Source: Methyloversatilis universalis
GTDB taxonomy: Bacteria; Pseudomonadota; Gammaproteobacteria; Methylococcales; Methylococcaceae
Length of the DNA stretch: 54,356 nucleotides
Direction: 5' to 3'
Assembly: GCA_020723665.1 (NCBI GenBank)
Contig: DYIL01000018.1
Coordinates: forward strand, 1 to 54,356
Under the pieces are notes generated by a model. It searched no databases. It was given only the letters and a program-made list of their open reading frames with translations, and was not told where the DNA came from. This document shows positions 7,813-42,823 of this stretch, one piece after another; within the stretch, counting starts at the first letter, position 1, and each line of letters begins with the position of its first letter. The translations under genes were made by a program, and so were the position numbers.

Positions 7813-8934
7813 ATGAAAAAGACTCACGGGACAAGAATCGAATCGTCAGCGATTTTGGCCGGCACAATCGTGCCCCTGGCCTTGCTGGCGTCCCCGCTGT
7901 GCGCAAGGACGCTCGGCATGGTGGCAGACAACACCACGGCTTCGGTCACGATATTCGACGCCGATACCGACACCGTGCTGGGGTCGGTACGCATCGAAAC
8001 CGCCGGCCTCGCGATCGGTGACGTTCTCATCACGCCGGATCAGACGCGGGGATTCGTGACGAATTTCAACAGCGAAGTCTTCGTCATCGACTTGACCGCG
8101 TCGCCTCCCCGCCTCGCCGACGGCACGAATCCGATTCCCATCGCCAACAACGGCGAGGATCTGTCGATCAGCCCGGACGGGAAGTTCCTGCTGGTGTCCG
8201 ATGGCCTCTTCACTCAGCCGATCTCGGTCATCGACATCGCCAAACAGGCCGAAACGAGCACCATGTCCGTAGGCACCGACACCAACTCGATCGACGTCTG
8301 CAGCGACGGTTCGGTGCTGGCCACATCGTCCGCCGACGCAACGGTGCGCCGGCTCGTCCTTAGCGAGGACGGCACCCTGAAAGACACCGGCGAAGTCCTG
8401 TCGCTCGGTTTCGGTGAACCCAACAATGTCCTCTGTGTTCCGGGCGCCATGTCGGGCCTCGTAATCAGCCGCGGCGGCGCCGAAATGACGTCGTTTACCA
8501 TCCCGGGGCTGGAGCGGGTCGACGTGCGCGCGCTATCCGGCACGTCCACCGGGATTTCCGGCTTGGTCGACTCAGCGGAAGAGCGCGTAATCGCCAGAAG
8601 TAACGGCGAATCCTCGGGAAGCACGGGCTTCATAGACATCTTCCGCTACGACGCCCAAAAGGCCACGCTCGACTTCGAACCGCTCCTTGCGCTTCCGATT
8701 TCCGACGCGCCGGAATTCTACGGAACGGATCAGATGGCGCTGCATCCGAACCAGGCCAAATTGTACGTCTCGGAGCCCGATACCCTGCGGGTGTATGACG
8801 CGAACAGCGGAGTTCCGCTGACGTCCATCAGCAATCCGAACATCGTGCGACCGACCGGAGTGACGATAGTTACGGATCGATGCGAAGGTCCTCCGCTCGA
8901 AGGAATGATCTCGGAAGCCTGCGCTCCGCCATGA
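7813..8934 (+). CDS. Exported YVTN/YncE-type beta-propeller protein
   Basis: A 373-residue protein with a signal peptide (MKKTHGTRIESS, then the hydrophobic ILAGTIVPLALLASPLCA), so it should be exported. The mature part is made of repeating beta-propeller blades of YncE/YVTN type: DNTTASVTIFDADTDTVLG, NNGEDLSISPDGKFLLVSDG, VSVGTDTNSIDVCSDGSVL, QMALHPNQAKLYVSEPDTL. Such propellers are found as surface or periplasmic binding proteins and as lactonase-like enzymes; no catalytic motif stands out. Cysteines near the C-terminus (DRCEGPP, SEACAPP) could form a disulfide. ATG 7813 follows GATGAGGT. It stands alone, with 214 bp to the next gene. Confidence 0.75.
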   Translation: MKKTHGTRIESSAILAGTIVPLALLASPLCARTLGMVADNTTASVTIFDADTDTVLGSVRIETAGLAIGDVLITPDQTRGFVTNFNSEVFVIDLTASPPRLADGTNPIPIANNGEDLSISPDGKFLLVSDGLFTQPISVIDIAKQAETSTMSVGTDTNSIDVCSDGSVLATSSADATVRRLVLSEDGTLKDTGEVLSLGFGEPNNVLCVPGAMSGLVISRGGAEMTSFTIPGLERVDVRALSGTSTGISGLVDSAEERVIARSNGESSGSTGFIDIFRYDAQKATLDFEPLLALPISDAPEFYGTDQMALHPNQAKLYVSEPDTLRVYDANSGVPLTSISNPNIVRPTGVTIVTDRCEGPPLEGMISEACAPP

Positions 8935-38543: not shown

Positions 38544-39254
38544 CTAATACCAGGCCCTTATACCCGCCACCGCCCTTACGCTGTGCTTGTGCTCTCTGAG
38601 CGACTGTTCCTCGACGTAATCGAAGCCGATATAAGGCGCGAACTCCCGCACGATTTCGTAGCGCAGCCTGAGTCCCGCTTCCAGTTCGGTGATGCCCGCC
38701 TTCACGCCGCGGTTCTCGATGTCGTCCGCGGACACGTTGATTTCGACCCGGGGCTGAGCGATGAGCCGTTGGGTCAGCAAGAGCTCGTAGGCGAGCTTGA
38801 AGCGGCCGAGGACGTTGCCGTTTTCGCTGACGAACATCGCCGCTTCGGTTTCGAAGAAATAAGGCGCGAGTCCCTGGATACCGATGACGCCGTCGAAGGT
38901 GCGTTCCGGCTCGAACGCGCGGCGGATGCCGACCTGGGCGTCCCAGAAGGTGGCGATGTTTCGGCTGTAGAGCAACTGGAGATCGGCCCGCCCGAAGATA
39001 TTCTGATCGAAGACGTAGTCGCCCTCGCTCTTTACCCACAGCTTGTTGTAGTCGCTGCCGGTCCAGCCCTCGATATCCCATTTGAAAAGGTGAATGTCGC
39101 CATTCCCCTCGTACTCGAACCGTTCGAACCCGAGATAGTTGTAGATCGCGTCGTCCATTTGAGCGGCCGCATGGCCACTGGCGAGCATGGCCAAGACAGC
39201 CGCGGCGCAAGCTGGCATTCGATGCCGTTCGAGACTCGGGATCACGTTCGTCAA
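38544..39254 (-). CDS. copB: Copper resistance protein B (outer-membrane)
   Basis: About 236 residues. A signal peptide (MPACAAAVLAMLASGHAAAQ) precedes a mature domain of the CopB/PcoB family: NYLGFERFEYEGNGDIHLFK, WDIEGWTGSDYNKLWVKSEG, YSRNIATFWDAQVGIRRAFE and RLRYEIVREFAPYIGF, ending in aromatic AGIRAWY as expected for an outer-membrane barrel. The Met/His-rich N-terminal stretch of classical CopB is missing. Start choice is uncertain: TTG 39254 overlaps the copA stop (TTGA) and gives a charged n-region, while ATG 39218 is the first ATG. Its role is copper sequestration or export, in an operon with copA. Confidence 0.85.
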   Translation of the reverse strand: MTNVIPSLERHRMPACAAAVLAMLASGHAAAQMDDAIYNYLGFERFEYEGNGDIHLFKWDIEGWTGSDYNKLWVKSEGDYVFDQNIFGRADLQLLYSRNIATFWDAQVGIRRAFEPERTFDGVIGIQGLAPYFFETEAAMFVSENGNVLGRFKLAYELLLTQRLIAQPRVEINVSADDIENRGVKAGITELEAGLRLRYEIVREFAPYIGFDYVEEQSLREHKHSVRAVAGIRAWY

Positions 39255-40978
39255 GCGCCCTTTTTCGCAGCCGTATCGGAAGTCTCCACGATGATCTTGC
39301 GGAACATCCCGGTTTCCATGTGATAGACCAAATGGCAGTGAAACGCCCATTCGCCCGGTGCATCCACCGGCACGTCGACGCGCACGGTTTCGCCCGGCCT
39401 GACGTTGACCACGTGTTTGCGCGGGTTGAACGGCCCCTTGCCGGTATCGAGGTCCTGCCACATGCCGTGCAGGTGTAGCGGGTGATTCATCATGGTCTCG
39501 TTGATATAGGTGAACCGCACCCGCTCGCCGTACTTGAGGCGTATCGGCTCGGCCTCGGAGTATTTCTTGCCGTTGACGGACCAGATATAGCGGTTCATCG
39601 TACCCGTGAGGCGCAGAACGATTTCCCGATCGGGCTCGCGCCAGTCCGCATGCTTCTCCGCGCTCTTGAGATCGGCATACGATAGCACCCGATGCCCCGT
39701 GCCGGCGCGTTCTTCGATAGGCTCCGCCAGGGCATGGCCTTCGTGGCCGGCATGCGGAGACATCGAGTGGTTCATCTCCGGCATCGCGGAATGATCCATG
39801 CCCGCCATATCGTGAGCTTCATGACCGCCATTCGTCCGGGTTTCCGTTTGCGGCGGATGCGTCATGGCCGCATGCGGACCAGTTCCGGAGCCGTGATCCA
39901 TACCGTGGGCCGCCGCCATCTCGGCCAGCGTCACCAAGGGCCTGGGCCGCAGCGGCGGGACTTCCGCCTTCATGCCCCGGCGCGGAGCCAGGGTCGCTCG
40001 GGCATAGCCGCTCCGGTCCATGGCTTCCGCGAAAACGGTGTAAGCCTTCGCTTCGCGGGGCTCGACCAGCACATCATAGGTCTCCGCGACGGCGATACGG
40101 AACTCGTCCACGTCGACCGGCTCCACGTCCTGTCCGTCCGCCTGGACGACCCGCATCCTGAGTCCCGGTATTCTCACGTCGAAATGGGTCATCGCCGCGC
40201 CATTGACGAAGCGAAGCCGGATGCGTTCGCCGGGCTTGAACAGAGCCGTCCAATTGGCATCGGGACCTTGACCGTTGACCAGGAAGGTGTAGGTGTAGCC
40301 GGTGACGTCGGCGATGTCGGTCGGGTCCATCCGCATTGCGCCCCAGGCCAAGCGATCGGCCATGGTCTCCTTGAACCCCTTGTCGGAGAGATCGCGGAAG
40401 AAATCGAACACGGTGCGCTTCTGAAAGTTGTAATAGTCGCTCTGCTTTTTCAGCTTCGAAAGCACCCGATACGGGTTCTCGTCCGACCAGTCCGACAGGA
40501 TCACCGTGTATTCGCGATCGTAGGTTTCGGTTTCGCCCTTCGCGGGATCGACGACGATCGCGCCCACGAGTCCCAGTTGTTCCTGCAGCGCCGAATGTCC
40601 GTGATACCAGTAGGTTCCACTCTGTCCGAGCTTGAAGCGGTAAGTGAAGGTTTCGCCGGGCGGAATGCCGGGAAAACTGATGCCGGGCACGCCGTCCATG
40701 TCGTAGGGGAGCACGATGCCGTGCCAGTGAATCGAAGTCGGCTCGTGCAACCGATTGGTCACGCGCAATATCACATCTTCCCCCTCCCGCCAGCGCAAGG
40801 TAGGCGCCGGAAACGAGCCGTTGACCGCGATGCCGGTGCGCTCCCGGCCGGTCAGATTCAATGTCTTCTTGTCTATGGCCAGGTCGTAAGTCCCGGCCTG
40901 GACCGACAGGGCGGCCAAAAGGGCGATCCAGAGACCTGCGATTCGGCAGAACCGGACAACGGCATTTACGGTTTGCAC
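39251..40978 (-). CDS. copA: Multicopper oxidase CopA
   Basis: A 575-residue multicopper oxidase of the CopA/PcoA copper-resistance type. Copper-binding motifs: HWHG at 84-87, YWYHGHSA, HPLHLHGMW and HCHLVYHMETGMF, which holds the type 1 Cys, His and Met. A Met/His-rich stretch between cupredoxin domains (MDHGSGTGPHAAMTH, HDMAGMDHSAMPEMNHSMS) is the usual Cu(I)-binding tether. The signal peptide (VVRFCRIAGLWIALLAALSV) has no twin-arginine pair, whereas CopA homologues normally use Tat; export of this one may go through Sec with copper loaded in the periplasm. It is first in copA-copB. No CusR/CopR regulator is adjacent. Confidence 0.93.
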   Translation of the reverse strand: MQTVNAVVRFCRIAGLWIALLAALSVQAGTYDLAIDKKTLNLTGRERTGIAVNGSFPAPTLRWREGEDVILRVTNRLHEPTSIHWHGIVLPYDMDGVPGISFPGIPPGETFTYRFKLGQSGTYWYHGHSALQEQLGLVGAIVVDPAKGETETYDREYTVILSDWSDENPYRVLSKLKKQSDYYNFQKRTVFDFFRDLSDKGFKETMADRLAWGAMRMDPTDIADVTGYTYTFLVNGQGPDANWTALFKPGERIRLRFVNGAAMTHFDVRIPGLRMRVVQADGQDVEPVDVDEFRIAVAETYDVLVEPREAKAYTVFAEAMDRSGYARATLAPRRGMKAEVPPLRPRPLVTLAEMAAAHGMDHGSGTGPHAAMTHPPQTETRTNGGHEAHDMAGMDHSAMPEMNHSMSPHAGHEGHALAEPIEERAGTGHRVLSYADLKSAEKHADWREPDREIVLRLTGTMNRYIWSVNGKKYSEAEPIRLKYGERVRFTYINETMMNHPLHLHGMWQDLDTGKGPFNPRKHVVNVRPGETVRVDVPVDAPGEWAFHCHLVYHMETGMFRKIIVETSDTAAKKGA

Positions 40979-41822: not shown

Positions 41823-42245
41823 ATGAAACCAGCCACTGGATTGATCGTTTTGGCATTCGTGGCCGCTTTGGGGGGCTGTGCTACCGCGAGGCCGGTGCTT
41901 TACCCGAACGAGCATCTGCAGAGCGTAGGCCAGGCCGGCGCCGACCGGGATATCGCCGACTGCAAGACCCTGGCTGAAGCCGCCGGCGCCGACGCGGGCG
42001 AGACCGGTGCCGGCCGGGCTGCCAGAAGCACCATCGGCGGCGCCGCCGTCGGTGCGGCGAGCGGTGCGGTCGGCGGCGCCGTGGTCGGATCGGCCGGCGC
42101 CGGTTCGGCGATCGGCGCGGCGAGCGGCGCGGTAGCGGGACTGATTCGATCGATGTTCGGCCCCTCCGGTCCGGACCCCACTTATAAGGCGTTCGTAAAC
42201 CGCTGCTTGCAGGAACGCGGTTACGACGTCATCGGATGGGACTGA
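41823..42245 (+). CDS. Glycine-zipper lipoprotein
   Basis: A 140-residue protein with a lipobox (LAFVAALGGC, cysteine at 19). After ADRDIADCKTLAEAAG there is a long Gly/Ala stretch of glycine-zipper type (GGAAVGAASGAVGGAVVG, GAGSAIGAASGAVAGL) expected to span or associate with membrane. The C-terminus YKAFVNRCLQERGYDVIGWD is a motif of this envelope protein family. The two cysteines outside the lipobox could form a disulfide. ATG 41823 has GGAGA upstream. It probably sits in the outer membrane; its function is unknown. Confidence 0.75.
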   Translation: MKPATGLIVLAFVAALGGCATARPVLYPNEHLQSVGQAGADRDIADCKTLAEAAGADAGETGAGRAARSTIGGAAVGAASGAVGGAVVGSAGAGSAIGAASGAVAGLIRSMFGPSGPDPTYKAFVNRCLQERGYDVIGWD

Positions 42246-42294
42246 TCTCCAGGAGGGAGGATTGACCCTGAGCTCCGATTCGACCTTAATACTT

Positions 42295-42736
42295 ATGAGT
42301 TACTCATATTTTTTGCCCTGGGCTCCGTCCAAGGATTTTCGTCTAAATGAGTAACTAATGAGAGATCGACATGCGTGGACTCAAACCCGAGAAATACACG
42401 GCAGCGCTACTTTATTTGCGGCGCGTGCTCAAGGAACCCGACAAGGTCCGAAAAATATTAGTAACTCACGAAGCCGATGCGGCCGAACAGCTCGACGGTT
42501 GTTCCGACCTTGATCGCCTGAACGCTTGGATCGAACGGCATCTGAACGATACCGGCTGGAAACGCTTGCAGAATGCGCTGAACCAGCGCCGGTGCTCGGC
42601 CAAATTGCAGCGGCTGAGCCTTAAGAAGAGTACTTACGCCGCCTTGGCCAAGCTGGCCAAAGAACAGCGAATGACGATCAACGAGACCGTCGAGCATCTC
42701 CTGCAATCGCATGAAACGAAGACATTAGTTACTCAT
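42295..42736. promoter_or_regulatory. Four copies of a 13-bp palindrome around a MatP-like gene
   Basis: ATGAGTTACTCAT at 42295-42307, ATGAGTAACTAAT at 42347-42359, ATTAGTAACTCAC at 42457-42469 and ATTAGTTACTCAT at 42724-42736 share the consensus AT(G/T)AGT(A/T)ACT(C/A)AT, with one mismatch at the end of the third copy. Two lie upstream of the start codon and two inside the coding sequence. I did not find this full motif elsewhere in the window. They are probable binding sites of the encoded DNA-binding protein. Confidence 0.6.
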
Positions 42737-42823
42737 ACGGCAGCCGGCGTCCCGGAAACCGAAGACGTCAGCGAAGAAATGCTGATCCGGATGATGGCAC
42801 GCGCCTCGGGGTCCGATGCTTAG
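42371..42823 (+). CDS. MatP-like DNA-binding protein
   Basis: A 150-residue cytoplasmic protein. The middle (LNAWIERHLNDTGWKRLQNA, LNQRRCSAKLQRLSLKKSTY) and the ribbon-helix-helix part (AALAKLAKEQRMTINETVEH) resemble MatP, which binds matS palindromes and condenses the terminus region: MatP has an equivalent NGWIDKHM block and a ribbon-helix-helix C-terminal to it. MatP's coiled-coil tail is replaced by an acidic end (EDVSEEMLIRMMARASG). Four copies of one palindrome surround and enter the gene; both internal copies encode LVTH (residues 31-34 and near 120). Autoregulation is the simplest reading. The stop TAG is the first triplet of a family C repeat. It could be a site-specific regulator rather than a chromosome organiser. 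Confidence 0.6.
   Translation: MRGLKPEKYTAALLYLRRVLKEPDKVRKILVTHEADAAEQLDGCSDLDRLNAWIERHLNDTGWKRLQNALNQRRCSAKLQRLSLKKSTYAALAKLAKEQRMTINETVEHLLQSHETKTLVTHTAAGVPETEDVSEEMLIRMMARASGSDA

Follow-up and report, generated by a model that had tools for sequence, protein, structure and literature searches.

A MatP-like gene of Methylocaldum carries matS-like palindromes, two of them in its coding sequence, that likely serve its own regulation

We found that a gene encoding a MatP-like ribbon-helix-helix protein, located in the window (the whole stretch of 54,356 nucleotides that was analyzed), carries four copies of a palindrome whose geometry resembles that of matS. Two copies precede the start codon and two lie within the coding sequence (Table 1), and in Methylocaldum the sites are almost confined to this gene and are conserved as DNA. 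The sites likely serve autoregulation of the gene that carries them and not organization of the chromosome terminus. Autorepression is the likeliest function, with binding by the encoded protein a prediction. The first-pass annotation, made from the letters of the window alone, had placed palindromes at 42295, 42347, 42457, and 42724 and had stated that the two intragenic copies share a reading frame and both encode LVTH. All four palindromes are present, the one at 42457 with a mismatch at one end, and both intragenic copies are in frame and read LVTH.

Table 1 Features of the MatP-like locus in the window
Feature	Position	Strand	Remarks
Promoter-like block, TTGACC ... TTAATACT	42262..42293	+	Directly before site 1
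Site 1, ATGAGTTACTCAT	42295..42307	.	11-mer at -75 bp from ATG
Site 2, ATGAGTAACTAAT	42347..42359	.	11-mer at -23 bp from ATG
Gene for the 150-aa MatP-like ribbon-helix-helix protein	42371..42823	+	
Site 3, ATTAGTAACTCAC, intragenic	42457..42469	.	One end mismatch; codons 30-33 = LVTH
Site 4, ATTAGTTACTCAT, intragenic	42724..42736	.	Codons 119-122 = LVTH

The four palindromes are the sole matches in the window when up to 2 mismatches are allowed. Dinucleotide shuffles of the window had a mean of 0.65 matches, with four attained in 1 of 100, in a count that takes matches irrespective of clustering. Between species, it is the 11-mer TKAGTWACTMA of the palindrome that stays constant. In the genome to which the window belongs (3.93 Mb of assembly searched, 94% complete), exact copies of this 11-mer occur at four places, all at the MatP-like gene, and the reversed control pattern occurs at three. 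The 13-mer with one mismatch is found at six places, the four at the gene and two elsewhere (contigs 13 and 89). Across the four Methylocaldum genomes compared (this genome, Methylocaldum marinum, Methylocaldum sp. 14B, and G007), 17 of the 18 exact 11-mers are at the MatP-like gene, and the only other one falls within an open reading frame of Methylocaldum sp. 14B; the reversed control pattern has 19 matches in the same genomes. The first-pass annotation had tied a concentration of the motif at this gene alone to autoregulation and a cluster near the replication terminus to a MatP role, and the genome-wide scan yielded the former outcome.

The arrangement of the sites is also conserved. In all four Methylocaldum loci, the 11-mer of site 1 begins 75 to 78 bp before the ATG and that of site 2 begins 23 bp before it, while the intragenic 11-mers begin at +87 and +354; sites 1 and 2 are 52 to 55 bp apart, sites 2 and 3 are 110 bp apart, and sites 3 and 4 are 267 bp apart. 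The G007 locus has a fifth site, an additional intragenic copy at +372 that arose via an 18-nt repeat. Over the 17 sites, the consensus is ATKAG-N3-CTMAT, with A at position 1 in 16 sites and T at position 13 in 10. The site at +87 is also present in Methylogaea oryzae, as TTAGTTGCTCA.

To evaluate whether the intragenic copies are kept as DNA or as peptide, we examined their codons. At every intragenic site LVT is written TTA GTW ACT, although TTA accounts for 1.7% of leucine codons in 24 long open reading frames of the window and for 2.4% in 71 open reading frames from six stretches. In the four Methylocaldum genes, TTA is used at the sites only, with a single exception at codon 16 in M. marinum. 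Among degenerate codons whose residue is invariant, identity across the four genomes holds for 34 of 81 outside the sites, as compared to six of the seven that overlap them. These six lie wholly inside the 11-mers; in the seventh (codon 33), variation is limited to the third base, which is outside the 11-mer. The first intragenic site encodes LVTH in all 12 full-length Methylocaldum-type proteins, and the second encodes LVTH in eight, LVTN in three, and LVTQ in one, all of which are compatible with TTA GTW ACT MAN. The codons of the second site belong to a variable linker modeled with low confidence (predicted pLDDT below 50 at residues 122-133). The coding copies are thus kept as DNA in the four Methylocaldum genomes, and on this codon test we rejected conservation driven by the peptide. 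Loss of the palindrome from homologues that keep the peptide had been named in advance as an outcome that would refute the proposal; within Methylocaldum we found the reverse, namely, a palindrome that stays while the last residue changes among H, N, and Q. Operators placed in the coding sequence for the protein that binds them would be a clear case of a DNA-binding constraint that dictates both codons and residues.

Judged by its sequence, the encoded protein is a remote homologue of MatP, and the initial description of it as MatP-like was borne out. The NCBIfam MatP model NF003471 matches it with an E value of 2.5e-5 and 24.4 bits, far below the cut-off of 165; PF17414 scores 19.4 against a cut-off of 24, and PF06303 is absent from the listed matches, so that the protein falls short of the curated MatP cut-offs. 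MatP models are nonetheless the only ones in Pfam and NCBIfam that reach an E value of 1, and MatP chains are the top matches in the PDB both by sequence and by fold. The predicted structure is a monomer model without a ribbon strand, and its Foldseek matches to MatP have E values of 0.025 to 0.19; residues 83-125 match chains of the AtaR, KacA, and TacA2 type. In the ribbon region, where MatP has RKKSIDL, the MatP-like family has an invariant LQR[LM]SLKK. The C-terminal tail is conserved and differs in sequence from that of MatP, which serves tetramerization in a protein that contacts ZapB and MukBEF; a different tail had been noted in the first reading of the sequence. Homologues were detected in six of the 38 family genomes searched. 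An alignment-based search of 311 genomes of the order returned the same six (four Methylocaldum and two of another genus), and a scan of genome contigs gave two loci, both already among the known homologues. A mobile-element or phage origin was rejected, as homologues are absent from the plasmids and viral contigs searched; a tRNA search of the window returned none.

Comparison with known matS sites (E. coli GTGACATTGTCAC and P. thracensis GTTACNNNGTAAC in the available portion of PMC8669397) shows the same layout. GTKAC-N3-GTMAC and ATKAG-N3-CTMAT share the TKA/TMA core, the G/T wobble, a 3-bp spacer, and a length of 13 bp, but they differ at bases 1 and 5 of the half-site, which are A and G here and G and C in matS. 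While matS sites are distributed across Ter, the sites described here are at one locus, two of them within the coding sequence.

The upstream region offers a plausible point of action. The TTGACC hexamer and CTTAATACT are identical in all four Methylocaldum loci, and the rest of the upstream region has diverged. Because a consensus promoter and terminator scan found nothing, we treat this block as a putative promoter. On balance, we favor a model in which the MatP-like protein binds all four sites and likely represses its own transcription at the promoter and ribosome-binding region, with the intragenic pair acting through looping or as roadblocks. A dimer of the protein would occupy each of the four palindromes. 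Since site 1 directly follows the promoter-like block and site 2 is at the ribosome-binding position, occupancy would repress either the start of transcription or translation. Sites 3 and 4 may be joined to the upstream pair by a bridging loop or may block the passage of RNA polymerase. The roles of the protein as the binder, in repression, and in bridging are what we infer. A point against this model is that the spacings between sites (52 to 55, 110, and 267 bp) do not fit a common multiple of a helical turn. A further argument against autorepression is that it posits a repressor with a single target and without an evident output.

A site before the start codon is also found in canonical matP genes. 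In E. coli K-12, GTTACACGGTAAC is located 25 bp before the matP ATG (L074:13461-13473; K-12 position 1,018,460). In K. aerogenes and K. pneumoniae, matP is preceded by GTTACACGGTCAC at -25, matP of P. mirabilis has GTTACGTTGTCAC at -23, and a metagenomic contig from a viral collection, whose MatP is 57% identical, has GTTACGCTGTCAC at -39. The matP copy on a Photobacterium toruni plasmid has no upstream site. Overall, five of the six canonical matP loci examined have an exact GTKACNNNGTMAC that starts 23 to 39 bp before their own ATG; from the plasmid collection, 4 of 14 records were examined, and most of the remainder are from E. coli. For any one gene, the 88 positions that precede it would contain a match by chance with a probability of ~4e-4. 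In 225 kb of K-12 sequence, GTKACNNNGTMAC occurs twice, once before matP and once as a true matS, and the 80-bp stretch before E. coli matP is present in 5,374 of 5,426 E. coli genomes. A ChIP-seq study counts, in its available portion, 21 matS among the 26 strongest MatP places (PMC4738335). The open-licence literature searched, including the available portions of PMC4738335 and PMC4177673, contained no report of MatP autoregulation or of the gene described here. The palindrome before matP of E. coli, and likewise of Klebsiella, Proteus, and the metagenomic contig, is likely an undescribed candidate self-operator. Given that five of six canonical matP genes have an upstream GTKACNNNGTMAC, a self-operator looks ancestral, and we suggest that MatP genes probably had it ancestrally and that Methylocaldum extended it into the coding sequence. 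MatP is a textbook chromosome organizer, and the comparison points to an overlooked operator before its E. coli gene.

The two homologues outside Methylocaldum, in Methylogaea oryzae and in the metagenome-assembled genome (MAG) DP16D_bin.30, have different arrangements. We searched these genomes with the relaxed pattern TKAGNNNCTMA. In every genome examined, this pattern has fewer matches than its reversed control (26 versus 89, 35 versus 199, 84 versus 242, and 32 versus 149); because of this, the counts say little, and we used clustering alone, which for G007 was judged among the matches listed. In M. oryzae, 6 of the 26 places in 4.02 Mb are within 587 bp at the gene, a cluster for which ~5e-14 are expected by chance (off-locus density, Poisson approximation). 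One of these sites is at +87 in the Methylocaldum coordinate, one is in the linker at +393, and four are past the stop codon, in the convergent gap before a MacB-like gene; within 600 bp upstream there is none, even with one mismatch allowed. At the first site, six of eight Methylogaea-type proteins have LVA followed by Q or K and two do not, and the DNA of the site was inspected for P0015 and P0014 only. The gap 3' of the Methylogaea gene contains four TTAGTNNCTAA repeats (L036:10336-10466), which are in one orientation as judged by the spacer T.

In the MAG, there are 32 TKAGNNNCTMA places, one of which is upstream of the gene, with its 11-mer starting 34 bp before the ATG. The gene itself has no intragenic site, and the conservation of intragenic copies does not extend to this relative. 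Four sites are instead clustered within 423 bp on another contig (contig 229, L043:8451-8873), away from the MatP-like gene, in the intergenic region flanked by a secreted-protein gene and a HigBA-type pair, and a fifth site with one mismatch is at 8889. At the secreted-protein gene, the presumed ribosome-binding region and the first site of this array overlap. Homologues of the secreted protein are present in 24 of the 38 family genomes, and of 29 loci of this family in other genomes, 26 have no match and three have a single match. With no common array in these 29 loci, a conserved regulon at the secreted-protein family is unsupported. In the two genomes together, the TKAGT half-site is found in 11 of 11 sites at the loci versus 13 of 47 elsewhere, in a test chosen after the sites had been seen. 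Because Methylogaea has no upstream site and the MAG has no intragenic site, neither repression at the promoter nor the presence of intragenic sites holds for the whole family. In this lineage the self-operator would have been multiplied, with additional copies upstream and in the coding sequence in the case of Methylocaldum and in the coding sequence and 3' flank in that of Methylogaea.

Since the lack of upstream sites in Methylogaea and the remote cluster in the MAG indicate that promoter repression is not the whole story, we keep as the main rival the possibility that the cluster is an anchoring or nucleation site. The protein would load at its own gene and tether, condense, or position the locus, and any effect on expression would be secondary. 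One dense locus per genome has the look of a nucleation site; four of the six Methylogaea sites are after the gene in a convergent gap, where there is no promoter; and the dense MAG cluster is elsewhere in the genome and is not shared by the 29 homologous neighborhoods. A precedent is MaoP, whose one cis site beside its gene, maoS, acts in this way for the Ori region of E. coli (available portion of PMC5023128), and in the two complete Methylocaldum chromosomes, where dnaA and dif-like sites were located, the MatP-like gene is 110 kb (M. marinum) and 116 kb (G007) from dnaA. However, the Methylocaldum loci are syntenic, and the common distance to dnaA therefore amounts to one observation. The position is not conserved beyond the genus, with the Methylogaea gene at distances of 1.55 Mb to dnaA and 0.38 Mb to dif, and the Methylocaldum upstream sites are exactly where a repressor would act. 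We regard anchoring as the primary role as a minority possibility. We would also only tentatively advance a reading that joins the two functions, in which an ancestral self-operator of MatP genes gave rise, in methanotrophs, to a one-locus system with the gene, its sites written twice into its own codons, as the chromosome's loading platform and the array as both a relocatable anchor and the protein's own repressor. The anchor would then be at the gene itself in Methylocaldum, at the gene and its 3' flank in Methylogaea, and at a separate locus in the MAG. The family comparison also points to a branch that lacks the dispersed matS set and in which self-targeting alone remains.

It is improbable, in our view, that a different protein binds the palindromes or that they are kept for the peptide or for translational control through rare codons. 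Binding by the encoded protein is a prediction, and TTA is indeed rare here, but two of the copies are noncoding, the peptide varies while the 11-mer stays, the clusters accompany the gene in two genera with unrelated neighbors, and the geometry of the site is that of matS. A canonical terminus macrodomain system with a diverged site appears very unlikely. It would agree with the MatP homology and the matS-like geometry, and GTGACRNYGTCAC with one mismatch occurs at 30 places on many contigs of the window's genome, versus seven for the reversed control. Exact matS (GTGACRNYGTCAC) is nevertheless absent from this genome, PF06303 has no match in any of the 311 order genomes, the Methylocaldum gene is near dnaA, and the one off-locus 11-mer in four genomes leaves no dispersed set. 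No spread of matS through the terminus was found, and the lineage's own type of site is at one locus. We rejected a canonical terminus role on the distribution of sites and the position of the gene, with the caveat that the distribution of the 30 one-mismatch matS places relative to the terminus is unmapped.

Autorepression through an array of this kind has partial parallels in other systems. Among RHH antitoxins and plasmid centromere binders, small RHH proteins act on repeated palindromes beside their own gene. PurR has a second operator within purR, on which our literature search found no paper. The present case differs in that the repeats enter the coding sequence and in the surroundings of the gene. 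Adjacent to it in the window are genes for a glycine-zipper protein and for fructose-bisphosphate aldolase, and the neighbors checked include neither a toxin gene nor a ParA-like partner. In M. marinum, AAA_22 and T2SSB genes follow the MatP-like gene.

The first-pass annotation knew of no described system in which the operator is written twice into the coding sequence of its binder. The sense that a binder's site within its own gene is without parallel is too strong, as the available portions of two papers describe parS-359 inside parB of Bacillus subtilis (PMC4442127) and LacI, which when bound at O3 acts as a roadblock to transcription of its own gene, and whose operators engage in looping (PMC3711431). 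Together with MaoP and its single maoS, these are precedents for parts of the arrangement. They differ from it in several respects. ParB has another fold, a ParA partner, and a 16-bp site that occurs once in the gene; the MatP-like protein matched no ParB model in Pfam or NCBIfam at an E value of 1, and ParA is absent among the neighbors checked. O3 mainly serves the lac operon, whereas in Methylocaldum we identified no distinct target gene. Like the present cluster, maoS is a lone cis-acting locus next to the gene for its protein, but it is one intergenic site of 17 nt, whereas the present array is partly intragenic. The open-licence literature searched contained no description of two in-frame operator copies conserved across a genus.

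The neighborhood of the gene is partly syntenic in Methylocaldum, and the neighborhoods in Methylogaea and the MAG are different. The glycine-zipper protein gene is directly upstream (window positions 41823-42245), and its counterparts in the three other Methylocaldum loci are 83 to 89% identical. Genes for CopB and a multicopper oxidase (window positions 38544-40978) are on the opposite strand, ~1.4 kb upstream of the MatP-like locus.
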